A DNA stretch of 33,807 nt from an uncultured Chlorobiaceae bacterium. Lineage in GTDB: Bacteria > Bacteroidota > Chlorobiia > Chlorobiales > Chlorobiaceae. The position numbers and the translations under genes were made by a program. Positions within the stretch are counted from its first letter, which is position 1. The number at the start of each line of letters is the position of its first letter. This document shows positions 21,879 through 33,512 of the stretch, piece after piece. The notes below the pieces were generated by a model, which ran no database searches, had not been told where the DNA came from, and worked only from the letters and a program-made list of their open reading frames with translations. Where the stretch lies: contig CAIJWE010000114.1 of assembly GCA_903824295.1 (NCBI GenBank), positions 1 to 33,807 of the forward strand, in the 5' to 3' direction.

Positions 21879-22202
21879 TTATGCAAATCCAAGCCACACT
21901 GCGAGCGCCCGGTTAACGGCAAGCATCAAGGCATCATCAAGTCTTCCGAAAGTCGGTCCAATTTTGTCACGCGGGACGGTCTGAACCTTGTCAACCATTA
22001 CCTGTGATCTTTTTTTCAGATTGTTACCCTCTGTCGGCTCAATCATAATCCTGAATAACGGGACTGACCGCAATTCACTTGTCACCGGCAGAATGGTCAG
22101 CGAGGGGTGTTCAGAAAAAAAATCAGACTGAACAACAACTGCAGGGCGAGGCTTACCGTAATCACCCTGTAATGCAATGGTAACCAGATCACCTCTCTTC
22201 AT
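21879..22202 (-). CDS. MazF/PemK-family toxin (mRNA interferase)
   Basis: The 107-aa product begins MKRGDLVTIALQGDYGKPRPAVVVQSD-like (split: MKRGDLVTIALQ, then GKPRPAVVVQSD). This is the classical MazF/PemK N-terminus, and ILPVTSEL and KKRSQVMVDKVQTVPRDKIG are the second half of the fold. Family members are sequence-specific endoribonucleases of type II toxin-antitoxin systems. An upstream in-frame ATG at 22211 exists, but the start at 22202 overlaps the antitoxin stop as ATGA and gives the family N-terminus. The pair lies at the border of the mobile zone. Confidence 0.88.
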   Translation of the reverse strand: MKRGDLVTIALQGDYGKPRPAVVVQSDFFSEHPSLTILPVTSELRSVPLFRIMIEPTEGNNLKKRSQVMVDKVQTVPRDKIGPTFGRLDDALMLAVNRALAVWLGFA

Positions 22203-22420
22203 GCCTCCCAACCCTCGCGGTCCGCAGCTTCATCAAGAAAATCAAGCAGTTCCTTTTCATGCGAATCATTTTTGACCAGCAGAGACTGCCGCCTGCACTC
22301 CTCCGCAAAACCGGAGCGACGTGTATCGGGAACCCATATCTGTATCGGTCGCATCCCCTCCGTGCGTAATTTCGCCCTGTACTTATGCACCCGTTCAAGA
22401 ACTCCGCCCATGTGTCTCAT
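22199..22420 (-). CDS. MazE-family antitoxin
   Basis: The 73-aa product carries the antitoxin MazE pattern HKYRAKLRTEGMRPIQIWVP, DTRRSGFAEECRRQSLLV and an acidic C-terminus (LLDFLDEAADREGWEA) suited to toxin binding. The stop overlaps the toxin start by 4 bases. Two ATGs lie near the beginning (22420 and 22411). The inverted repeat at 22446-22476, about 25 bp upstream, is a plausible autoregulatory operator. Confidence 0.85.
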   Translation of the reverse strand: MRHMGGVLERVHKYRAKLRTEGMRPIQIWVPDTRRSGFAEECRRQSLLVKNDSHEKELLDFLDEAADREGWEA

Positions 22421-22791: not shown

Positions 22792-23362
22792 ATGGAAGGA
22801 CGACTGATCGGTTATGCCAGGGTCTCAACTTCGGGTCAGGAACTGAACCTGCAGCTTGATGCTCTCAAACATGCTGGCTGTAAAAAGCAGCATATCTTTA
22901 CCGAGCAGATAAGCGGGTCGAAAGCTGAACGACCGGGACTTACCGAGTGCCTGAAAGAACTGAAAGAAGGTGACACGCTCATCATCTGGCGGCTGGACCG
23001 CCTTGGTCGCTCACTTCGGAACCTGATCGATATTGTCGAACAGTTGCAGAAAAGGGGAGTAGGCTTCTGCTCTATCAATGACGGCGGCCTTGATACCACT
23101 ACGGCATCCGGTGAGATGATTTTCAACATCTTCGGCACTCTTGCCCAATTTGAGCGCGGTCTGATTCAGGTGCTTACCCATGCAGGCCTGACGGCAGCCA
23201 AGGGCAAGAGGAAGAAAAGGTGGGAGACCGAAAATTTCGAAAGACGATCCGAAAGTGCAGATGGCCAAAAAAATGAGCAAGAATATGAACATCAGCATCG
23301 GCGAGATCTGTGACACGCTGAAGATTTCACGGGCGACTTATTACCGGTATTTAGGATTGTAG
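22792..23362 (+). pseudogene. Serine recombinase (resolvase/invertase family), frameshifted
   Basis: The catalytic domain is recognisable: LIGYARVSTSGQELNLQLDA with Ser12, then WRLDRLGRSLRNLID, and FNIFGTLAQFERGLIQ. After about base 23205 the frame breaks. The original frame runs to 23313 as nonsense. The +1 frame reads GRKGGRPKISKDDPKVQM and then a complete helix-turn-helix ending RATYYRYLGL, with its stop at 23360-23362. A one-base insertion near AAGGGCAAGAGGAAG explains this. FERGLIQVLTHAG also departs from the usual FER.L..ERT.AG. It is either a decayed gene or a sequencing/assembly error. Confidence 0.85.
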
Positions 23363-23449
23363 GGGGAGCTATTATTATACTTGCTAAGTACGATCTTGTT
23401 CGGGAGCACTTTCAACTTTCAAATAAAAGTCAAAGGTTATTACCAATGA

Positions 23450-23487
23450 GGGGTCGCTTCAGGAAACGGATTTTAAAGTACGTTAAG
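23450..23487 (+). repeat. Tn3-family terminal inverted repeat (38 bp, left end)
   Basis: It begins GGGGTCGCTTCAGGAAACGG and ends TACGTTAAG. This matches the Tn3/Tn21 repeat form, which starts GGGGTC and ends CACG(C/T)TAAG over 38 bp. The outer end (GGGG) faces left. The tnpR stop lies inside the repeat, as is common in this family. It resembles the repeats at 33204-33241 and 33513-33550. Confidence 0.85.
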
Positions 23488-24040
23488 GATTATTGGATGC
23501 CGGAATCCACCGGTAAAGCGTCGGAACAGATACCCCGAGATTTTTTGCCACATCCCGTGGTGGAATACCGTTAGCCAGCAGCTTTTTTGCTGAAAGAATT
23601 TTACTGTCCGTCATCAGGCGCTTGCGGCCACCCTTCCTGCCAAGTTGGCGGGCCATTTCCAATCCTGCACGAGTACGCTCAACCGTCAGTTCCCGCTCCA
23701 TTTCAGCGAGGCTTGCCATGACGTGAAAGAAAAAACGGCCTGATGGCGTACCGGTATCAATCGCATCGGTAATACTTTTGAACTGAACCCCTTGTTTCTG
23801 AAGTCCGGCGACCAAATCAACCAAGTGCTTTACGCTACGTCCAAGTCGATCAAGTTTCCAGACAACAAGCGTGTCTCCCGTCCGCATCAGTTCCAGTGCC
23901 TTGGTAAGTCCAGGGCGTTCGGCCCGTGTACCACTCACTTTATCCTCGAAGACCTTTTCACATCCAGCCTTGGTTAATGCCTCAATCTGATGATTAAGAT
24001 TTTGATCCTGTGTTGAAACCCTGGCATAACCGATCAGCAT
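23483..24040 (-). CDS. tnpR: Tn3-family resolvase TnpR
   Basis: TnpR is the serine recombinase that resolves cointegrates formed by Tn3-type transposition. The 185-aa product appears intact. It has the nucleophile Ser9 in LIGYARVSTQDQNLNHQ, DTLVVWKLDRLGRSVKHLVD, the ASLAEMERELTVERT segment, GRKGGRKRLM and a C-terminal helix-turn-helix (IPPRDVAKNLGVSVPTLYRW). It is transcribed away from the transposase fragment, and its C-terminus ends inside the terminal repeat. It may still be able to act in trans. Confidence 0.93.
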   Translation of the reverse strand: MLIGYARVSTQDQNLNHQIEALTKAGCEKVFEDKVSGTRAERPGLTKALELMRTGDTLVVWKLDRLGRSVKHLVDLVAGLQKQGVQFKSITDAIDTGTPSGRFFFHVMASLAEMERELTVERTRAGLEMARQLGRKGGRKRLMTDSKILSAKKLLANGIPPRDVAKNLGVSVPTLYRWIPASNNP

Positions 24041-24198
24041 CTCTTTCTCCGTTTATTTTCTCAATACTCATTTAAAATACGATATATTAAGAATCAATAT
24101 CAAGAACTATTTTCGAGAAGCCTAACTCCATTGTTTTTGATAGTTCGATTTTCCCTGACAAGTATTCTCAAAAAACCTCGTTTTTAAGAGGAGTATCA

Positions 24199-24665
24199 AT
24201 GCCACGTCGTTCAGTTATTTCAGCATCAGAACGCGACAGATTGCTGGTTATGCCGAATGCTGAAGATGAGTTGATCCGGCACTATACTTTCAATGATTCG
24301 GATCTGTCGATTATTTTTCAGCATCGGGGTGCTGAAAATCGCTTGGGGTTTGCCGTGCAACTCTGCTATATGCGTTATCATGGAATGATAATACCTCCAG
24401 ACGTTGAACCGTTCGCTCCACTGCTTCGTATTGTTGCAAAACAGCTTAAGGGAAAAATATGGCCGACGCGCTGAAACACGCAGAGATCATTTAATAGAAT
24501 TGCCATCATTTTTTGGCTTCAAGGCATTTACTAATAGGCATTTTTGCCCTTCTGTACAAGGGTTAGATAATTTGGCATGGCAAACCGATAAGGGTATTGT
24601 GCTTGGCTGAAAAACTTCTCGATAGTTTACGCCATCAGCATATCATTATTCCAGCGATAGATACT
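24199..24665 (+). pseudogene. tnpA: Tn3-family transposase TnpA, N-terminal part, frameshifted
   Basis: The start is good: AAGAGGAG precedes the ATG. The first frame gives ERDRLLVMPNAEDELIRHYT, then FQHRGAENRLGFAVQLCYMR and ends prematurely at 24474 after AKQLKGK. A second frame continues with EKYGRRAETRRDHLIELPSF and LAWQTDKGIVLG (to 24610). A third continues AEKLLDSLRHQHIIIPAID to about 24660. These are successive parts of the N-terminal (DUF4158) region of Tn3 transposases. At least two indels are therefore present before the break near 24660. Confidence 0.88.
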
Positions 24666-25010
24666 TCGGATTGATGTGACCGGTACATTATCCATGGTTA
24701 CCAGCCTTGAATCGCTGTCCATCCGATGATGATGTCGTACCGTCACCCCAGTTTTGTGCAAACGGATGCTGGAGTTGAGCATTGACCAGTTCAGCAAGAG
24801 CAGCGGAGTATGTTTCATCTCGAATGTGCCAAGCTTGCAACCAAGAGAGCTTTGAGTATGTCGTGCCCGGACAGCATTCAGCCATTTTCGTCAGACAGAG
24901 GTTTATCGCATCTGCCAGAATGGCTGTCAGAAGCAGTGAGGTATCTTTGGCCATATCGCCAATCTTGAGGTATGTAAACCGGCGGGAGCAGCCAGTTCAC
25001 GCATCAACTA
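24650..25010 (-). pseudogene. tnpA: Inverted internal fragment of the Tn3-family transposase
   Basis: On the minus strand the segment reads [20 protein letters not shown], then [40 protein letters not shown] and [17 protein letters not shown]. It continues after a frameshift to GHINPKY at the very end. These are conserved blocks from the central/catalytic half of Tn3 transposases. It faces the opposite way to the N-terminal fragment and abuts it at about 24660, so an inversion with deletion has occurred. Upstream codons to ~25010 also resemble the family in shifted frames. Confidence 0.88.
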
Positions 25011-25071: not shown

Positions 25072-25077
25072 TATAAT
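25072..25077 (+). promoter_or_regulatory. Candidate -10 box of the peptide ORF
   Basis: TATAAT lies 30 bases before the ATG at 25107, preceded by an AT-rich stretch. A TTGACA sits at 25062-25067 but only 4 bases away, too close to be its -35 partner. If used, transcription would start near 25084 and exclude the in-frame TTG at 25077 as start codon. Confidence 0.4.
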
Positions 25078-25106
25078 TGCATGAAAAGAGTAAACTTCAT
25101 ATTCAA

Positions 25107-25301
25107 ATGGAAAGTATTAGTCAGAAGAAAGAACAGAAAAAATGGCACGCCCCATTAGTGATTACGTTAAAGAAAGCCACTCATGGAAAGGCACAGGTGC
25201 TTAGCCAATGCCGGGCATCATTACAGCAATCCACCACATCCAGTAATTATTACGGGTGGTGTACTGCCCATTATTACGGATGCTCTTATTGTTCTTCCTG
25301 A
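25107..25301 (+). CDS. Candidate RiPP precursor peptide (64 aa) for the downstream radical-SAM cassette
   Basis: No family is recognised. The first ~29 residues are leader-like: charged SQKKEQKK, then WHAPLVITLKKATHGKA. That aromatic-x2-Pro-x-hydrophobic pattern followed by T-x-G-K is like leaders bound by PqqD-type domains (for example the YxxPxL motif of lasso precursors). The rest is polar and rich in Cys (35, 52, 59, 62), Tyr, Gly and Trp, ending SSNYYGWCTAHYYGCSYCSS. A TATAAT box sits upstream; no strong ribosome site is seen. Caveat: a +1 frame open at 25183-25386 reads LANAGHHYSNPPHP and could be the original continuation if the gene has suffered a frameshift. Random ORF is not excluded. 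Confidence 0.4.
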   Translation: MESISQKKEQKKWHAPLVITLKKATHGKAQVLSQCRASLQQSTTSSNYYGWCTAHYYGCSYCSS

Positions 25302-25821
25302 TCAGGATAAATTATTAATAAATATTGAATTAACATTCAATCACGGTGTCATGGTCGCTTGTGTTTGCGTTTTTTTTTACGGGTAAGTCTGGAGAGACTT
25401 TACATCTAAAACTTAAGTTTTAGTAACTATTGTTCACCTGTATAAGGTTCTTCTTGTTTGAAAAAAGGAACGTCAAATGCGCGAGGTAAATTCGGCGTAT
25501 TTAGACTCTTTTTTTTGATGTATATCATGAAACAGTGTAAAACCAAACAAACGGTATGTACCATTGAGCCAAGGAAGTGGCAGAAGCGGGGGATTACGGT
25601 CGTGAAGGGGCGAGATGTTAAAAGGCAAGACGTCTGAAGAACGTGTCGGTATAGGGAGAACATGAGTACATCAGGCTAGACATATGGCGGATGCAATGGG
25701 AAAGCTTGGGGAAACCAGAACTGTACTGAATTCCAATGGTAAGGCCAGTGCGGCTCGTTATTAATGGTGAGTGGGCTAGTTATTGGCCATAAAGCCTGTT
25801 GAGAATTCGTATTCATTTTAA
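25302..25821 (+). other. 520-bp stretch without a supportable gene
   Basis: Short ORFs exist on both strands but none resembles a known protein or has a good start. The part at ~25555-25800 is purine-rich with many short G and A runs and several complementary short words (GGCC repeats at ~25750-25790, an AGACGTCT palindrome near 25630), followed directly by a terminator-like hairpin. It could be a structured RNA or the eroded remnant of a mobile intron; I could not match it to either. Confidence 0.3.
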
Positions 25822-25858
25822 GCCGTCAGTCAAGGGCTGGCGGCCTATATTTTTATTT
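25822..25858 (+). terminator. Intrinsic-terminator-like hairpin
   Basis: GCCGTCAG and CTGGCGGC form an 8-bp stem (one G-U pair) with a 7-base loop, followed by CTATATTTTTATTT. It lies between the candidate precursor and the maturation enzymes. It could end the upstream transcript or allow partial readthrough, giving more precursor than enzyme mRNA. Confidence 0.65.
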
Positions 25859-25860
25859 AG

Positions 25861-26061
25861 TTGGTTCGCATCAATAATGTTGAGGTGCTTCAAAATATAT
25901 ATACAGTATCTGTTGATGCTGGGTTTGGTTGTTACCAGATCTTCGAGACCGCTACGGAGCCAGTAGTGCAAGTTGGAGAATTACCGGTGGGCACTTTCTT
26001 TGATGCGCTGCAGGCTCACTGCTCAAGGTCGGAGCCACTGTACGTGGCATTTTATATCTAA
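25861..26061 (+). CDS. Unrecognised 66-aa ORF directly ahead of the first radical SAM gene
   Basis: It opens at a TTG right after an in-frame TAG (a GTG at codon 9 is an alternative), and there is no convincing ribosome site. The product is mildly acidic with two cysteines (DAGFGCYQIFE and QAHCSRSEPLYVAFYI) and has no leader/core look. It ends 16 bases before the radical SAM ATG, so it may be co-transcribed. It may be a small cassette protein, an alternative precursor, or the 3' remnant of a larger gene cut off by the rearranged region upstream. Confidence 0.35.
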   Translation: MVRINNVEVLQNIYTVSVDAGFGCYQIFETATEPVVQVGELPVGTFFDALQAHCSRSEPLYVAFYI

Positions 26062-26077
26062 CCTTCAGCACTTTATT

Positions 26078-28072
26078 ATGTCAAAGCAACTTGTCGATTA
26101 TCGCCTGCCTCTTGAGGTGCATTTCGATCTGACATACCGATGTAACAATAACTGCCGTCATTGCTGGCTGAGAATTCCAGCTTCTGACCCTGAAAAAAGC
26201 AGGGAACTATCATTTGAAGAGATCAGGCGGATTGTGGATGAAGCGAGGGCTCTCGGGACGCGCCGCTGGTCACTTTCTGGCGGCGAACCAATGCTTCGAT
26301 CTGATTTTGTTGACATTTTTGACTATATCACGTCCAAAGCTATCTCCTATTCTCTCAATACTAACGGTACGTTGATGACGCCAGCTCTTGCCCGGCTGCT
26401 CAAGCGCAAAGGCAAGGTGATGGTTGCTCTCTACGGGGCTACCAGAGAGACCTATGACCATGTTGCCCGTCATCCCGGTGGCTTTGAGCTGGCAATGCAG
26501 GGGTTTCGCTACCTTCAGGAGGCAGGTGCCGACTTTATCGTGCAACTTGTTCCCATGAAGGCGAACTGGCATGAATGGGAGCAGATGACAGAGTTTGCAA
26601 AATCATTAAGCACGGTTTGGCGTGTCGGGGCGCCCTGGTTCTATCTCTCCTCTTCTCAGGACACTGAGATCAATGCTGCAATTGCCCGCCAGCGTCTTGA
26701 TCCCCGCGACGTGGTGGCGCTCGACAAACCTAGCCTTGCTGAAGATGATGATGAACAAGACCACCAGTGCGGCCATACTCAAGGTGACGGACGGCTGTTT
26801 GCCAGTTGCATAGCTGGCCGGCGCGATTTCCATATAGATCCTTATGGAGGTATGAGCTTCTGCTCGTTTGTAAAAGAACCCTCCATGCGCTACAATCTTC
26901 GCTCCGGAACCGTTCGTGAAGGGTGGGAAGAGTTTATTCCATCGCTTGCCAACCGGGTGTTTGACGGTGCCGAGCACCGGGAAAACTGCGGTTCCTGCGA
27001 TCTCCGCAACTATTGCCGCTGGTGTGCCGTCTATGGCTGGCTGGAGCATGGCCGCTTTTCAGCGCCGGTGGAGCATCTCTGCGACGTTGCCCGTGAGAAC
27101 AAACGCTTCAAGCAGGAACTGCGCACGCACCACCGCCGCTTTTTCACTATTGCCGGCATGACCATCAGGCTTGACAGTGACCTGCCGATTGGTGAAGAAA
27201 CCTTTCACCCAACGCTTGATGCCTTTTGTACGGATGAGCCCGGTGATGATATGGTGACCATACACCACCATTTCGATTTGCCTGATCTCAAGAGCAAAGA
27301 GTTTGGCATCGAGGTGTACCGCAAGGCGCCATGGGCGATTTTTGAACAGGGAGGCTCCTTTGTCTATCTGGGCATAGCTGATCAGCCTGATGACCATGCG
27401 CTTCATGGCGCAGCGACGATTTCCGATACCCATACCGAGCTGCGCATCTACAATGACGAGGTACAGAAGGAGTTGTGGCATCGCGGCGGCCTCCGTTCGC
27501 TCACCATGTTTCTTTCCGACCAGCTTGTTCTTGCAAGGCTGCTGGCCGATCGCCAGGGGTGTCTCTTCACGGCGGCAGCCGTCAACATCAATGGCCGCGG
27601 CCTGCTTATTGTGGGAAGTGAAGCTGACCAGACATCCATCATCAAGCACCAGATGGATGCCGCATCAACAGGCGGCGGAACGCTGGAAATCCTCTCTGAC
27701 CGCACTGCTCTTGTGCGTCGTACCGAGGTTGGCTGGCAATTGTATGGTGCTTGGTGCCACGGCGATGAAGAGCAGGTGTCGGCAGGTTCGGCTCGGCTGT
27801 GTGCCATCTGTTGTGTTAAAAACGGTGCAGAAAACAGCATAATTCTCCTCACCGATGGTGAAGAGGTGCTTCGCCGCCTGCTTGCATGCCTTGTTGTACC
27901 TCTGGTGATCGGCGCATGGTGGCAGCATACAGTTGACGGCGTCAGGTCGATGGTCGAGCAGATTCCATGCGCTGCGGTCTGCTTCGACATGAGTGGCACC
28001 ATTGACGCTGACCTCCATACACTGGCGGAGGAGTGCGATTCCCTCCTATCTTCTGAATCAATAACCGAATAA
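26078..28072 (+). CDS. Radical SAM/SPASM maturase fused to a degenerate HPr-kinase-like domain
   Basis: Residues 1-~350 are a radical SAM enzyme: Cys22-X3-Cys26-X2-Cys29 binds the 4Fe-4S cluster, SGGEPML is the SAM motif, and a SPASM region follows (CGSC...YCRWC...HLC) for auxiliary clusters. Residues ~355-664 resemble HprK-fold proteins of RiPP clusters (FTIAGMTIRLDSDLPIG; GWQLYGAWCHGDEEQVSAGS). In them the P-loop GPSGxGKS is expected, but here it reads GSEADQTS (from Gly513), so ATP use is doubtful. From memory this half matches the conserved protein ScmC of the SynChlorMet cassette, normally a separate protein. The start is the ATG at 26078, since the upstream frame lacks homology. It ends 7 bases before the next gene. 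Confidence 0.85.
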   Translation: MSKQLVDYRLPLEVHFDLTYRCNNNCRHCWLRIPASDPEKSRELSFEEIRRIVDEARALGTRRWSLSGGEPMLRSDFVDIFDYITSKAISYSLNTNGTLMTPALARLLKRKGKVMVALYGATRETYDHVARHPGGFELAMQGFRYLQEAGADFIVQLVPMKANWHEWEQMTEFAKSLSTVWRVGAPWFYLSSSQDTEINAAIARQRLDPRDVVALDKPSLAEDDDEQDHQCGHTQGDGRLFASCIAGRRDFHIDPYGGMSFCSFVKEPSMRYNLRSGTVREGWEEFIPSLANRVFDGAEHRENCGSCDLRNYCRWCAVYGWLEHGRFSAPVEHLCDVARENKRFKQELRTHHRRFFTIAGMTIRLDSDLPIGEETFHPTLDAFCTDEPGDDMVTIHHHFDLPDLKSKEFGIEVYRKAPWAIFEQGGSFVYLGIADQPDDHALHGAATISDTHTELRIYNDEVQKELWHRGGLRSLTMFLSDQLVLARLLADRQGCLFTAAAVNINGRGLLIVGSEADQTSIIKHQMDAASTGGGTLEILSDRTALVRRTEVGWQLYGAWCHGDEEQVSAGSARLCAICCVKNGAENSIILLTDGEEVLRRLLACLVVPLVIGAWWQHTVDGVRSMVEQIPCAAVCFDMSGTIDADLHTLAEECDSLLSSESITE

Positions 28073-28079
28073 GGAAACA

Positions 28080-29273
28080 ATGAGTTACGTACAAAGGCTG
28101 GAGCCACACGAGTTCACGCTTGGGGGTGGTAAAAAGCTGCTCTTGGGCCAGATTGATATTGAGCTGACCGAGCGCTGCAACAACAACTGCGTACACTGCT
28201 GCATTAACCTGCCGGAACATGATCCTGATGCTCTCAAGCGCGAAATGAGCACGGATGTGGTCAAAAAAATCTTGACGGATGCTGCAAATCTTGCCTGCAT
28301 GACGGTCCGTTTTACCGGTGGAGAGCCGCTTCTGCGTCCCGATCTGGCGGAACTCTATCTCTTTGCCCGGCGTCTTGGGATGATGGTTGTTCTTTTTACA
28401 AACGGCCGTCTGATTACCCGTGAGCTTGCTGAGCTACTCGCAAAATATCCGCCGGGGCGTGTTGTGGAAATTTCGGTATATGGCATGAGTGCCGAATCGT
28501 ACGATCGGGTTGCCGGTCATGCCGGAGCTTTTGTTGAGTTTCGCCGGGGTATTGAGCTGCTGCTTGAGTACAAGATTCCCTTTATTGTCAAAGCTCCAAA
28601 GCTCCAGTTCCTGAACGATGAACATGAGCAGTTTGAAGCGTGGGCAGCAACAATTCCGGCTATGGACAACATTCCCGGCTACTCCATTAATTTTGATCTT
28701 CGCTCCCGTCGAGATAATCTGGCAAAAAATACCCATATCATCACGCTTCGTGCCACACCCGAAAAGACGGTGGCTTTGCTCTCCCGTAATCCGGGTTACT
28801 TGAGCGATATGGGGCAGTTTTGCGCAAAGTTTATGAGGCCTGCGGGCGACAGGCTCTTCAGTTGCGGCGCTGGACACGGAACCTGTATTGATGCTTATGG
28901 CCAGGCGCAGGTTTGCCTGCCTCTACGCCATAAACACTACAGTGTTGATCTCCAAGAGGTAAGCCTGAAGCGAACTCTCGAAGAGATGTTTCCTGCCATG
29001 TGTGAGATGAAAGTAACCAACCCTGACTATCTTCGCCGCTGCGCCGTCTGTTTTTTGCACGGGCTTTGCGAGCAGTGCCCGGCAAAGTCGTGGGCGGAGT
29101 ATGGCACCCTCGACACACCGGTGGAGTACCTCTGCGAGGTTGCCCATGCTCAGGCACGTTTTCTTGGTCTCCTGAACGAGCATGAACGGGCTTGGGAGGT
29201 CGGGGATGCAAAGGAGCGCGTCGCCGCTTTTGTTGCCCAACACTGGCCGGATGGTCAAACGGCAGAAGGATAA
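28080..29273 (+). CDS. Radical SAM/SPASM peptide maturase
   Basis: The 397-aa product is PqqE-like. It has Cys33-X3-Cys37-X2-Cys40 (TERCNNNCVHCC) for the SAM-cleaving cluster and RFTGGEPLLRPDL as the SAM motif. The SPASM region has CGAGHGTCIDAYGQAQVC, CAVCFLHGLCEQC and YLCEVAHAQ. SPASM clusters in characterised relatives support C-C, C-S or similar crosslinks on peptide side chains. The spacing in the middle block is CX2CX5CX2C. AAGGAA lies 2-7 bases before the ATG, and the gene follows the previous one by 7 bases. From memory it corresponds to one of the two SynChlorMet enzymes ScmE/ScmF. Substrate is unknown. Confidence 0.88.
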   Translation: MSYVQRLEPHEFTLGGGKKLLLGQIDIELTERCNNNCVHCCINLPEHDPDALKREMSTDVVKKILTDAANLACMTVRFTGGEPLLRPDLAELYLFARRLGMMVVLFTNGRLITRELAELLAKYPPGRVVEISVYGMSAESYDRVAGHAGAFVEFRRGIELLLEYKIPFIVKAPKLQFLNDEHEQFEAWAATIPAMDNIPGYSINFDLRSRRDNLAKNTHIITLRATPEKTVALLSRNPGYLSDMGQFCAKFMRPAGDRLFSCGAGHGTCIDAYGQAQVCLPLRHKHYSVDLQEVSLKRTLEEMFPAMCEMKVTNPDYLRRCAVCFLHGLCEQCPAKSWAEYGTLDTPVEYLCEVAHAQARFLGLLNEHERAWEVGDAKERVAAFVAQHWPDGQTAEG

Positions 29274-29313
29274 TAGTTTTCATATCATGAATTATTAAAA
29301 CAACATACTACTT

Positions 29314-29610
29314 ATGGAACTGACACTTGAGCAGATCATTGTACCCTCAGAGGATATTGTGGCTCGTCTTATTGAAGATGACCTGATTATTGTTCCTCTG
29401 GTTGCCGGCATTGGCGATGCAGATGATGAACTTTATACCCTGAACGAAACCGGCAAGGCTATATGGTCGCTCCTTGATGGAGAAAAAACATTGGGAAGTA
29501 TTGCTGAAGAGCTGAGCCGGGAGTTCAATGCAGCTCCCGGTGAAATTGAGCAGGATCTGCTTGGACTGGCAGGTGAGCTGCTTCTACGGAATATTGTTGT
29601 TGCCCGTTGA
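29314..29610 (+). CDS. scmD: PqqD-family RiPP recognition element protein
   Basis: The 98-aa product has the PqqD fold pattern. An N-terminal strand region is followed by DELYTLNETGKAIWSLLDGE, where the LNETG.AIW motif is diagnostic, and helices TLGSIAEELSREFNAAPGEI and QDLLGLAGELLLRNIV. Such proteins bind the leader of a precursor peptide and present it to radical SAM partners. It sits between two SPASM enzymes. The symbol follows the SynChlorMet cassette naming from memory; orthology was not tested. Confidence 0.85.
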   Translation: MELTLEQIIVPSEDIVARLIEDDLIIVPLVAGIGDADDELYTLNETGKAIWSLLDGEKTLGSIAEELSREFNAAPGEIEQDLLGLAGELLLRNIVVAR

Positions 29611-29635
29611 GGCTCCCTCTCTGAGGCAGTTCGTC

Positions 29636-30142
29636 ATGAGCAGCGCTTCCTATGTACAGACGGGGAAAAAGCCCTATACGCTTTCGGGTCTCGGGCTTGC
29701 CATGATGATGAAGGAGGTGCTTAAAAAACGGGCGCAGTTCCGCTTTATTGCGCTTGGTTTGAGTATGTCGCCCTTTATTCGCGACGGCGATGTGCTGACC
29801 ATTTCAGCGATTGCATCTCCGCTCTGCGTGGGAGATGTTGTTGCCTTTATCAGCACAGATCGCACAAACCTTGTTGTGCACCGCATTGTGCAGCTCTCGT
29901 CAGCGGGCTATTGCATCAAGGGCGATAACAACAGGAGGGCGGATGGATGGATAGAGGCTTCAAGTATTCTTGGCCGTGTTGTTCGGGTAGAACATCGTGA
30001 CCGTCAGGTAAGGGGTGGCCTTGGTGTTGAGCGCTGTCTCATTGCATGGCTGTCGTATCGTGGCTTGCTGTCGCCGATCACCCGGCTGTTGTGGGGCAAA
30101 ATAAAGAGGTGTAACGAGATCATGATGAACAAAAATAATTAA
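29636..30142 (+). CDS. S24/S26-family peptidase (signal-peptidase-like), probable leader or precursor processing enzyme
   Basis: The 168-aa product carries the S26 box GLSMSPFIRDGDVL with candidate nucleophile Ser43. The VVHRIV box has His82 where bacterial signal peptidases have Lys, and IKGDNN follows. The Ser-His arrangement is the archaeal/ER (Sec11-like) type. No clear N-terminal membrane anchor is seen; a weak hydrophobic stretch lies near the C-terminus (CLIAWLSYRGLLSPITRLLW). The frame opens at 29528 inside the PqqD gene; the ATG at 29636 is preferred. In this setting it could remove the leader, since the exporter has no peptidase domain. Confidence 0.8.
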   Translation: MSSASYVQTGKKPYTLSGLGLAMMMKEVLKKRAQFRFIALGLSMSPFIRDGDVLTISAIASPLCVGDVVAFISTDRTNLVVHRIVQLSSAGYCIKGDNNRRADGWIEASSILGRVVRVEHRDRQVRGGLGVERCLIAWLSYRGLLSPITRLLWGKIKRCNEIMMNKNN

Positions 30143-30150
30143 ACCTTGTT

Positions 30151-31284
30151 ATGAGACAGCTTACAACCATTGACATTAAAGATTTTCCTCTCTGGGAAAA
30201 AATGAAAGAGCATCGTAGGCTTTTTTCGTTTGATCTTGAAATTACAGCCCGGTGCAATAATCATTGCCACCATTGCTATATCAATTTGCCATCCGGTGAC
30301 CGCGAGGCACGGGCAAAAGAGTTGACAGCGCAGGAAATCAACGACATTGCCGATCAGTCCGTGGCGCTTGGTGCTGTATGGGTGCTTATTTCCGGTGGCG
30401 AACCACTGCTTCGCGATGATTTTGAGGAGATTTATCTGCTGCTTAAAAGAAAAGGGCTGCTGGTTTCGGTCTATACCAATGCCACCCTGATTCGTGATGA
30501 ACATATTGCGCTGTTTAAAAAATATCCCCCACTGAATATTGAAGTGACCATTTATGGCGTTACAAAGGAGACGTATGAACGGGTGAGCGGCAGGCCAGGC
30601 TCTTATGATGCGTTTATGCGTGGCTTGAACCTTCTTTTGGAGGGTGGTATCAAGGTGCGTCTCAAGGCAATGGCGCTTCGCTCAAATTTTCATGAACTTC
30701 CGGCTATGGCTGCGTTTGGCCGTTACTATACCAAAGATTATTTCCGCTTTGATTTTCAACTCCACTTCCGGTTTGACCGTAACGAAGCGCGTAATCTTGA
30801 CATCAAATCGGAACGGCTTACTCCTGACGAGATTGTAGCGCTTGAACGCGGTGACGATGAGCGTTTTCCGGTGCTGGTTGAAGGTTGCAACGAGCTGATC
30901 AATGAAGAGTTCAGCCATGTTGGCTGCGATCACCTGTTTCATTGCGGGTTAGGTAACGGTGGGTTTAACGTCAGTTATGATGGTAAGTTCCGGCTTTGCC
31001 ATTCGCTCTGGGCAGCTGGTACCATCTATGATCTTCGTCAGGGCACAGTGCGCGAAGCATGGGAGAAGTTTGTACCAAAGGTGAGGGATATGCGTTCACG
31101 CCGGGCTGAATATCTGGAAAAGTGTCGTCGCTGCTCCATTGTCAATCTCTGCCTCTGGTGCCCCGCTCATTCCGACCTTGAGACCGGTGAGCTTGATTCG
31201 CCAATAGAGTATTTCTGTCAGGTTGCCCATGCAAGGTCGGCAGCAATTCAGGAAGCTGATGCTGCACGTCAGGAGCAAGCCTGA
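30151..31284 (+). CDS. Radical SAM/SPASM peptide maturase
   Basis: The 377-aa product has Cys35-X3-Cys39-X2-Cys42 (TARCNNHCHHCY), the SAM motif ISGGEPLLRDDFEEIY, and a SPASM region with CGLGNGGFNVSYDGKFRLC, CRRCSIVNLCLWC and EYFCQVAHARS. It is similar in layout to the enzyme at 28080 (both end the SPASM block with P-V/I-EY-L/F-C-VAHA) but clearly not identical. Duplication followed by specialisation is likely. It starts 8 bases after the peptidase gene. This is the third such enzyme in the operon. Confidence 0.88.
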   Translation: MRQLTTIDIKDFPLWEKMKEHRRLFSFDLEITARCNNHCHHCYINLPSGDREARAKELTAQEINDIADQSVALGAVWVLISGGEPLLRDDFEEIYLLLKRKGLLVSVYTNATLIRDEHIALFKKYPPLNIEVTIYGVTKETYERVSGRPGSYDAFMRGLNLLLEGGIKVRLKAMALRSNFHELPAMAAFGRYYTKDYFRFDFQLHFRFDRNEARNLDIKSERLTPDEIVALERGDDERFPVLVEGCNELINEEFSHVGCDHLFHCGLGNGGFNVSYDGKFRLCHSLWAAGTIYDLRQGTVREAWEKFVPKVRDMRSRRAEYLEKCRRCSIVNLCLWCPAHSDLETGELDSPIEYFCQVAHARSAAIQEADAARQEQA

Positions 31285-31313
31285 TTGGCCTCTCTTGTCA
31301 ACAATCAACCGTT

Positions 31314-33134
31314 ATGAGTACTTTCCGGTCGAAACTCGCCCAACTGCGTCGGCAGCTTCCCTTTATTCCTGCGACAGTGAGACTTGTCTGGCAAGCATCT
31401 GGTTTCTGGGTGCTGGTGTGGGTGATGCTCCTGTTGTTGCAGGGAGTGTTGCCGGTAGCCATTGTTTCCATGACAAAGTCTGTTCTTGATACCTTGACGG
31501 CAGTGTTCAAAAAGGGAGGCGGCAACGTACCGGCAAGCAGTAGCATGTTATTGCAAGTTGTTGTGCTTGGTGCTCTGTTGCTTGGTGAAAAAATTCTGAG
31601 CAGTGTGGGGCAGTGGATTCGTACAATCCAGAATGAACGTCTTCAGGATTATATGACAGGATTGATCCACGACAAGGCGCTGGAACTGGATCTTGGCTAT
31701 TACGATTCACCGGACTTTTACGATCGTCTCCATCGGGTACGGATAGATGCGATGCACCGGCCGCTTGAGCTTCTTGAAGGGATGGGGAATCTTGTGCAGC
31801 ACAGCCTTACGCTGGCTGGTATGGCTGTGCTGCTTGTTGCGTATGCACCATGGATTCCTTTGCTGCTGCTTGCAGGAACCATCCCTGCCCTATGGGTCAC
31901 GTTTAGTTATACAGGCAGGCTTGACCAATGGTGGCAACGCAACATTGCTGATCATCGCAGGAGTGATTACTTTGATTGGCTTATTGTCATGCGTGAGGCT
32001 GCTCAGGAGCTGCGGCTGTTTGATTTGGGCAATCATTACCGGGCATCGTATCAGCAATTACGTGCACACCTGAGGGGAGAAAAGCTTGGGATGGAAAAGC
32101 GCAAACTTCTTTCGGAACTTGGTGCGGAAGCTTTTGCCTTGATGACAACAGCCTTTGCCATGTTCTGGATGATCACCCGAACCATTGCCGGTCTGGCTGG
32201 TGTTGGAGACATTGTTCTTTTCTATCAGGCTTTTGCACAAGGGCAGCAACTGATGGCAAATCTGTTGCGCCATACAGGTGAAATCTACCGGAACGTGCTT
32301 TTCCTTGAGAATTTTTTTGACTTGATGCATACACAGTCCAGAATTTCTGATCCTGTAGCTCCTCTTCCCGTGCCCGTCATAAAAGAGAGTATTCGGTTTG
32401 AAGGAGTTGAGTTTCATTATCCTGAGAGTGATCGTCAGCTTCTCCACGATTTTAGTCTGACGCTTAAAGCGGGCGAGATCGCCGCGATTGTTGGTGAAAA
32501 TGGAGAGGGTAAAACAACACTGATTAAGCTTCTTTGTCGATTTTATGATCCTGAACAGGGAAGGGTTACTGTTGATGGTTGTGACCTGCGTGAGTTACGG
32601 CAATCGGAGTGGCGACGTCAGGTAACCGTACTCTTTCAGGAACCGGTTCGCTATAATGTGACAGTGGGTGAGAATATTGCTCATGGTGATATTACCGGCA
32701 ATCCGCTTCCGGCGGATATTCTGAGGGCTGCTGATGCTTCCGGAGCCTATGATATTATCACTCGGTTGCCGAATGGTTTTGATACGCTTCTTGGCAAGTG
32801 GTTTGGTGGTGCCGAGCTGAGTGCCGGAGAGTGGCAACGGGTAGCGCTTGCCAGAGCTTTTCTGCGCAATGCACAACTTATCATTCTTGATGAACCCACC
32901 AGTATGCTTGATGTATGGGCTGAAGCCAGATGGTTTTCGCGGTTTCGTGAGCTTGCCGCTGGATGCACCGTGTTGATTATCAGCCATCGACTCACCACAA
33001 CCATGCAGGCAGACGTTATTCATATTATGCGTGAAGGAGGAATAACGGAATCAGGGACCCATAAAGAGCTGATGAACTTGAAGGGGAGCTACTATAAGGC
33101 GTGGGAAAGCAGGGGTGATACACCGTCATCATGA
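31314..33134 (+). CDS. ABC-type peptide exporter (fused membrane and ATPase domains, no C39 peptidase)
   Basis: The 606-aa half-transporter has an N-terminal membrane domain with about six segments (to ~residue 330) and a nucleotide-binding domain. The latter has Walker A GENGEGKTT from Gly394, a Q-loop (VLFQEPVRYN), the signature LSAGEWQ from Leu502 (a variant of LSGGQ), Walker B LIILDEP with Asp526-Glu527, and the H-loop His558 (ISHRLTT). There is no N-terminal C39 peptidase, so the leader must be removed by another protein. It is last in the operon, 29 bp after the third radical SAM gene. Homodimeric export of the modified peptide is inferred from context. Confidence 0.9.
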   Translation: MSTFRSKLAQLRRQLPFIPATVRLVWQASGFWVLVWVMLLLLQGVLPVAIVSMTKSVLDTLTAVFKKGGGNVPASSSMLLQVVVLGALLLGEKILSSVGQWIRTIQNERLQDYMTGLIHDKALELDLGYYDSPDFYDRLHRVRIDAMHRPLELLEGMGNLVQHSLTLAGMAVLLVAYAPWIPLLLLAGTIPALWVTFSYTGRLDQWWQRNIADHRRSDYFDWLIVMREAAQELRLFDLGNHYRASYQQLRAHLRGEKLGMEKRKLLSELGAEAFALMTTAFAMFWMITRTIAGLAGVGDIVLFYQAFAQGQQLMANLLRHTGEIYRNVLFLENFFDLMHTQSRISDPVAPLPVPVIKESIRFEGVEFHYPESDRQLLHDFSLTLKAGEIAAIVGENGEGKTTLIKLLCRFYDPEQGRVTVDGCDLRELRQSEWRRQVTVLFQEPVRYNVTVGENIAHGDITGNPLPADILRAADASGAYDIITRLPNGFDTLLGKWFGGAELSAGEWQRVALARAFLRNAQLIILDEPTSMLDVWAEARWFSRFRELAAGCTVLIISHRLTTTMQADVIHIMREGGITESGTHKELMNLKGSYYKAWESRGDTPSS

Positions 33135-33275: not shown

Positions 33276-33316
33276 GTCGGGTAACAGCAGCGCATTACTA
33301 CACCGCCGTCCCCTAA

Positions 33317-33350
33317 GAACCGTGCTTGCGACTTTCACCGCACACGGCTC
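33317..33350 (-). ncRNA. Group II intron domain V
   Basis: The 34-nt hairpin begins GAGCCGTGTGCGGTGAAAGT and closes with CACGGTTC. It has the AGC catalytic triad at positions 2-4, the GAAA tetraloop and the two-base bulge region. This is the most conserved part of group II ribozymes, so the identification is firm. Confidence 0.88.
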
Positions 33351-33512
33351 AAGCCTCTGCAAAGGCGCCTTGCGGCACCCGACAACACCACTGTGTTGAT
33401 TTGGTTCTCTGTTTGTTTCGACGGGCCTCAAAGTATTGCGTCCACGCTGGGTCGTGTGGGTTCGCCATGCCCTTGATCTGAACGTGTCGCTTTATAGGGG
33501 TGTCAGCTTCCA
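33349..33512 (-). pseudogene. C-terminal fragment of a group II intron maturase/reverse transcriptase
   Basis: The frame reads TPIKRHVQIKGMANPHDPAW and TQYFEARRNKQ, like the region ahead of the HNH endonuclease domain in intron-encoded proteins, and stops at the edge of domain V. The HNH cysteine/histidine motifs are not seen, so the C-terminus is shortened or belongs to a family without HNH. The N-terminal side is cut at 33512. Confidence 0.6.

Follow-up and report, generated by a model that had tools for sequence, protein, structure and literature searches.

We report that a gene cassette at positions 25107–33134 of a 33,807-nucleotide stretch of DNA from an uncultured Chlorobiaceae bacterium (contig CAIJWE010000114.1; below, the window) probably directs the synthesis of a ribosomal peptide modified by radical chemistry, with one radical SAM enzyme per cysteine and with a kinase branch that has been lost in the window. 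More tentatively, the cassette may represent an undescribed class of ribosomally synthesized and post-translationally modified peptides (RiPPs), present in Chlorobiota, Omnitrophota, Desulfobacterota-type bacteria and Chloroflexota, in which the SPASM enzymes each act on a cysteine of their own, and gain or loss of the enzyme half called rSAM1 adds or removes one cross-link beside a phosphorylated C-terminal serine. The proposal is built on gene content, a precursor family, its co-occurrence with the cassette, an association between cysteines and rSAM1, conservation of the terminal serine and a degenerate kinase, all of them read from sequence; from these we infer the chemistry (thioethers, phosphorylation), the assignment of enzymes to residues, leader cleavage and export.

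Results and Discussion

On the forward strand, the gene of a 64-residue precursor peptide (25107–25301) is followed by a fused gene (26078–28072), of which the first half encodes the radical SAM/SPASM enzyme rSAM1 (26078–27154; PF04055, 85 bits) and the second a domain of HPr-kinase fold (27155–28072). Then come the radical SAM/SPASM enzyme rSAM2 (28080–29273; PF04055, 76 bits), a PqqD-like RiPP recognition element (RRE; 29314–29610; PF05402, 52 bits), an S26-type peptidase of the Ser/His type (29636–30142), a third radical SAM/SPASM enzyme, rSAM3 (30151–31284; PF04055, 85 bits), and an MsbA-like ABC exporter with fused permease and ATPase (31314–33134; PF00005, 116 bits). From rSAM1 to the exporter the spacers are 7, 40, 25, 8 and 29 bp. 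A preliminary description of this DNA had listed three proteins with CX3CX2C and SPASM cysteines, a PqqD protein, an S26-type peptidase and an exporter, all on one strand with spacers of 7–40 bp, and this inventory is confirmed; the precursor ORF and the domain of HPr-kinase fold are additions to it.

The CX3CX2C and SPASM cysteines are present in all three radical SAM proteins of the window, and when 24 homologues of rSAM1, 37 of rSAM2 and 35 of rSAM3 are aligned the cluster cysteines hardly vary. The peptidase matches PF00717 marginally above the cut-off (23.9 vs 23.3 bits) and the archaeal-type signal peptidase model TIGR02228 with 51.5 bits against a cut-off of 51.85; the Ser of its GxSMxP motif and the His of HR, invariant among 25 S26 homologues, are both kept. 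The exporter scores 250 bits with TIGR02203, below the cut-off of that model, and carries no C39 peptidase domain.

The window precursor consists of the leader MESISQKKEQKKWHAPLVITLKKATHGKAQVLSQ and a core that can be written C35R...C52...C59SYC62SS. Small open reading frames (ORFs) near related cassettes share with it the pattern W-x-x-P-x-[LIV] ... E-x-x-VL-x-x-C-[KR], after which comes a variable core with cysteines. Among 20 aligned precursors, W13, P16, L32, C35 and C52 (window-peptide numbering) are invariant and E29, K36 and C62 nearly so, and cysteines are the sole invariant residues of the core. Since this alignment had been gathered by motif, the family was put to three separate tests. 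A profile made from nine precursors of other phyla only placed the window ORF at the top of all six frames (E 4.2e-6; the next had 0.89). Among 86 Chlorobiaceae genomes, strong matches were found in 7/8 of those with the cassette and in 0/78 of those without it, where one weak match (E 4e-4) occurs; the strong matches include genome G064, whose precursor lies on a different contig and was outside the profile-building set. In other groups, where genomes had been chosen for their cassette proteins, the precursor was present in 12/13 and in 18/20 genomes, the latter set not having been used for building the profile.

A locus that combines a precursor, a PqqD-fold protein and a modifying enzyme has the composition of a RiPP system with an RRE, and the pairing of SPASM radical SAM enzymes with a Cys-containing core is that of sactipeptides and ranthipeptides. 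The discovery of a precursor family that goes together with the cassette lends good support to what the preliminary description had proposed, a RiPP pathway with its own exporter. The precursor family has no model in Pfam or NCBIfam, and a single member matches an unnamed PHROG (E 0.003). A reading of VLxxC as a lipobox was ruled out on inspection: there is no hydrophobic signal segment, and the −1 position is too variable. In the Omnitrophota genomes G087 (that of locus L012), G115 and G154, 7–20 precursors are scattered across many contigs, with up to 20 dispersed copies in G087, which recalls RiPP systems in which one enzyme set acts on many substrates.

The number of core cysteines was found to follow the presence of rSAM1. 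Some related cassettes lack the rSAM1 half and retain the kinase alone; their precursors have three cysteines (CK...C...C), whereas those of cassettes with rSAM1 have an extra one, 3–5 residues ahead of the last, so that a closing pair is formed. Each locus or genome was labelled manually on the basis of its precursors, and the closing pair is present in 23/24 cases with rSAM1 and 0/10 without it over all loci (p 8e-8), and in 14/15 versus 0/4 of the loci examined after the hypothesis had been noted (p 0.0013). In the rSAM1-minus genomes no true rSAM1 was found elsewhere, the best matches being paralogues with 171–217 bits as compared to 589–648 for real ones. On the rSAM2 tree the presence of rSAM1 changes at least six times, and the independent pairs go in the predicted direction. 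That the closing pair tracks rSAM1 suggests one SPASM enzyme for each precursor cysteine.

It should be pointed out that several observations weigh against this assignment. Only three independent rSAM1 changes fall on well-supported branches of the rSAM2 tree, so kinship may account for part of the association. In locus L133 rSAM1 is not accompanied by a closing pair, L138 combines the two gene forms with a precursor of three cysteines, and the many-precursor genomes vary. The cores show no conserved residue as a thioether acceptor. Furthermore, known sactisynthases usually form several bonds each, and the two enzymes of thuricin CD work jointly (PMC12093266). Cassettes L137 and L138 have a stand-alone kinase gene as well as the fusion with rSAM1, and the precursors of L137 include three-Cys and four-Cys forms, which makes this locus a natural test pair.

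The 305-residue C-terminal extension of rSAM1 (27155–28069) is recognised by neither Pfam nor NCBIfam, while the kinase domains of relatives give weak matches to ScmC/HprK-related models. Its AlphaFold model, with a predicted local distance difference test score of 90.8, superimposes on HPr kinase/phosphatase (1knx) with Z 12.2 and 3.0 Å over 130 residues (VIA-align), and on phosphoenolpyruvate carboxykinase with Z 11.9. The extension has, in other words, the HPr kinase fold that characterises HPrK-type RiPP kinases (paeninodin K). At the precursor side, the last residue is Ser in 50 of 58 precursors and Thr in 5 more, the five preceding positions show no Ser/Thr bias, and in 41 of the 51 cores with three or four cysteines the last Cys stands exactly six residues ahead of the last residue (Cys-x5-Ser). 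The conserved terminal serine would fit phosphorylation at this position by an HPrK-type kinase, and no better interpretation of the domain is available.

In the window itself, motif alignment shows the loss of Walker A (GxxxxGKST), lysine included, of the conserved His and of CDDR, all of which are intact in nearly all of 35 relatives. The gene for a nucleotidyltransferase (NTP_transf_5), often part of related cassettes, is absent from the window's genome, and the window precursor ends two residues past its last Cys, its canonical tail being lost. The kinase half is 47–49% identical to three close relatives that share 76–84% among themselves; for the rSAM1 half the corresponding values are 70–78% and 80–86%. 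Similarly, the ratio of codon position 1+2 to position 3 is 0.53 for the kinase half versus 0.25 for rSAM1; the three radical SAM genes, with 0.25–0.28, are under strong purifying selection. With the kinase motifs, NTP_transf_5 and the tail gone and the kinase half evolving faster, the facts agree with a loss of the C-terminal branch in the window lineage, where the radical SAM part would still be under purifying selection.

We propose the following scenario for the pathway. The PqqD protein would hold the W-x-x-P-x-[LIV] leader while the SPASM enzymes act on the core cysteines, most likely forming thioether cross-links. rSAM2 and rSAM3 would serve the cysteines common to all precursors, and rSAM1 the extra one located 3–5 residues ahead of the last. 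The kinase domain fused to rSAM1 would phosphorylate the C-terminal serine, and in many relatives the nucleotidyltransferase could then decorate the terminal phosphate. Finally, the leader would be removed by the S26-type peptidase and the product exported by the ABC protein. For the window, a cross-linked but unphosphorylated peptide is to be expected, because the kinase residues are gone, the genome has no nucleotidyltransferase and the tail is shortened.

A different possibility is that the cassette makes a RiPP by other SPASM chemistry (cyclophanes, epimers or beta-carbon modifications), with the cysteines as disulfides or metal ligands and an rSAM1/Cys link that is indirect or due to kinship. 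SPASM enzymes do catalyse many chemistries, and both the lack of a conserved thioether acceptor in the cores and the thin tree support for independent rSAM1 changes speak for it. We nevertheless consider this alternative rather unlikely, as no core residues other than cysteines are invariant and the extra cysteine tracks rSAM1 also in the loci examined after the hypothesis had been noted. The enzymes could, in principle, instead belong to a heme or other cofactor pathway, given that the top NCBIfam match of all three radical SAM proteins is AhbD heme b synthase. This is hardly credible and was rejected: the matches are generic (89–106 bits against a cut-off of 500), and such a pathway does not account for the PqqD protein, the peptidase, the exporter and the precursor family that co-occurs with them. 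The preliminary description had named best hits to non-RiPP families, and conserved neighbourhoods without a peptide substrate, as outcomes that would speak against it; the former are of this generic kind, and the conserved neighbourhoods do hold a peptide substrate.

It is also conceivable that the cassette of the window no longer functions and is decaying beside transposon remnants, and that the product is made by the relatives only. The degenerate kinase, the short precursor tail, the Tn3 remnants upstream and the 773 bp that separate the precursor from rSAM1 are in line with this, and so is the divergence of PqqD and S26, which is likewise greater in the window than in close relatives; this last point also weighs against the scenario proposed above, since the pathway as a whole could be weakening. 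Every ORF is open, though, the three radical SAM genes keep all cluster cysteines under the purifying selection described above, and the S26 Ser and His are retained, so that we regard decay of the whole cassette as improbable.

Comparison with known systems

The nearest named system is SynChlorMet (TIGR04248–TIGR04252, ScmA–F), of which the preliminary description took the cassette to be an enlarged version. A hidden Markov model search against TIGR04248–TIGR04251, suggested there, gave no model that reaches its cut-off in the window. The radical SAM proteins score 62–93 bits with TIGR04250/TIGR04251 (ScmE/ScmF; cut-off 400) and PqqD 25.2 bits with TIGR04248 (ScmD; cut-off 100). TIGR04249 (ScmC; cut-off 125) matches neither the window kinase domain nor anything in the genome, and relatives reach at most 45 bits with it; with TIGR04252 (ScmA; cut-off 35) no precursor of the family matches at E 1. 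Since all window proteins lie far below the cut-offs, the cassette falls outside SynChlorMet and, judged by these scores, is a sister of that system and not a member.

The two systems have in common SPASM enzymes, PqqD, an HPrK-like ScmC-type protein and a W-x-x-P peptide, and they occur in the same bacterial family, together in genomes G038 and G065. SynChlorMet differs in having two radical SAM enzymes of another lineage, no visible radical SAM-kinase fusion, and a precursor core of repeated Cys/Gly units without VLxxCK. Of the supposed enlargement, the third, kinase-fused radical SAM enzyme stands, but the S26 and ABC genes are no addition, both being present in the SynChlorMet loci L094, L095 and L097. 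Likeness to SynChlorMet holds in terms of the nearest named system, with the reservation of a different enzyme lineage, a different precursor and scores far below the cut-offs. Contrary to the earlier statement that SynChlorMet lacks a known precursor, one has been proposed for it and has its own model (ScmA, TIGR04252).

Peptides with a W-x-x-P leader and a core of repeated Cys/Gly units were observed beside SynChlorMet genes in L091 (9073–9285, −), L092 (8663–8920, −), L093 (8305–8532, −), L094 (10074–10355, −), L095 (9033–9317, −) and L097 (6787–6987 and 8665–8943, +). As three of the six tested match TIGR04252 weakly and below its cut-off, this model seems to miss divergent SynChlorMet precursors. 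No paper on SynChlorMet or on the present gene combination was found in the open-access literature, which is weak evidence because most subscription journals lie outside it.

With sactipeptides and ranthipeptides (thuricin CD, ruminococcin C) the cassette shares SPASM radical SAM enzymes and Cys-containing cores, and with thuricin CD also the use of more than one such enzyme (two there). In those systems, one enzyme or a joint pair forms all thioethers (PMC12093266), while in the cassette enzyme number appears to track Cys number, the leader is another one and there is a kinase branch. YxxPxL motifs in lasso leaders are read by RREs, and the W-x-x-P-x-L leader of the cassette is similar (PMC10368454, PMC12710340). 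Paeninodin and pseudomycoidin lasso peptides share with it such an RRE-read leader, a kinase homologous to HPrK, a C-terminal Ser and a nucleotidyltransferase (PMC8498205, PMC10368454); the terminal serine recalls the C-terminal-Ser kinase of paeninodin. The cassette has radical SAM enzymes instead, and its kinase is fused to rSAM1. Neither a lasso cyclase (asparagine-synthetase-like) nor a transglutaminase-like B2 protease was found near it, the cassette proteins being of other families.

Distribution and surroundings

The recurring gene order is precursor, rSAM1-kinase, rSAM2, PqqD, S26, rSAM3, often a nucleotidyltransferase, and exporter, with variations. Carriers are Chlorobiaceae, Omnitrophota, several deltaproteobacterial metagenome-assembled genomes, Chloroflexota and one Euryarchaeota-binned contig; most are metagenome-assembled genomes, and individual taxon labels may be wrong. 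The cassette is present in 8/86 Chlorobiaceae genomes and, elsewhere, in 16/384 (weak matches included), 9/395 and 4/396 sampled genomes. This sparse distribution suggests horizontal spread. No match was found in plasmids or viral contigs.

Directly upstream of the cassette, at 22792–24954, are two resolvase genes and a broken Tn3-type transposase (PF13700, PF01526), a hint of a mobile origin. The gap of 773 bp (25302–26074) contains no convincing gene and has no second copy anywhere in the genome. An ORF within it (25861–26061), considered as a second gene before rSAM1, matches no family in Pfam or NCBIfam; by eye it resembles an ORF beside a DDE transposase in L061 (1502–1900) and is possibly antisense to an insertion sequence remnant. 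The only RNA element at the cassette is a group II intron domain (RF00029, 62.5 bits; 33276–33352, −), just 3′ of the exporter gene. Further upstream, an ORF that by its sequence is a MazF-like toxin (21879–22420, −) and a small ORF preceding it likely form a toxin-antitoxin pair.

Conclusion

With both the precursor and the enzymes now identified for a cassette that crosses phyla, its chemistry becomes directly testable. If there is indeed one radical SAM enzyme per cysteine, the number and place of the cross-links would be readable from gene content, in contrast to ruminococcin C and thuricin CD, whose radical SAM enzymes either form more than one bond apiece or work together. The fusion of a cross-linking enzyme with a kinase for the C-terminal serine would, moreover, connect the radical SAM RiPPs with the phosphorylated lasso peptides.

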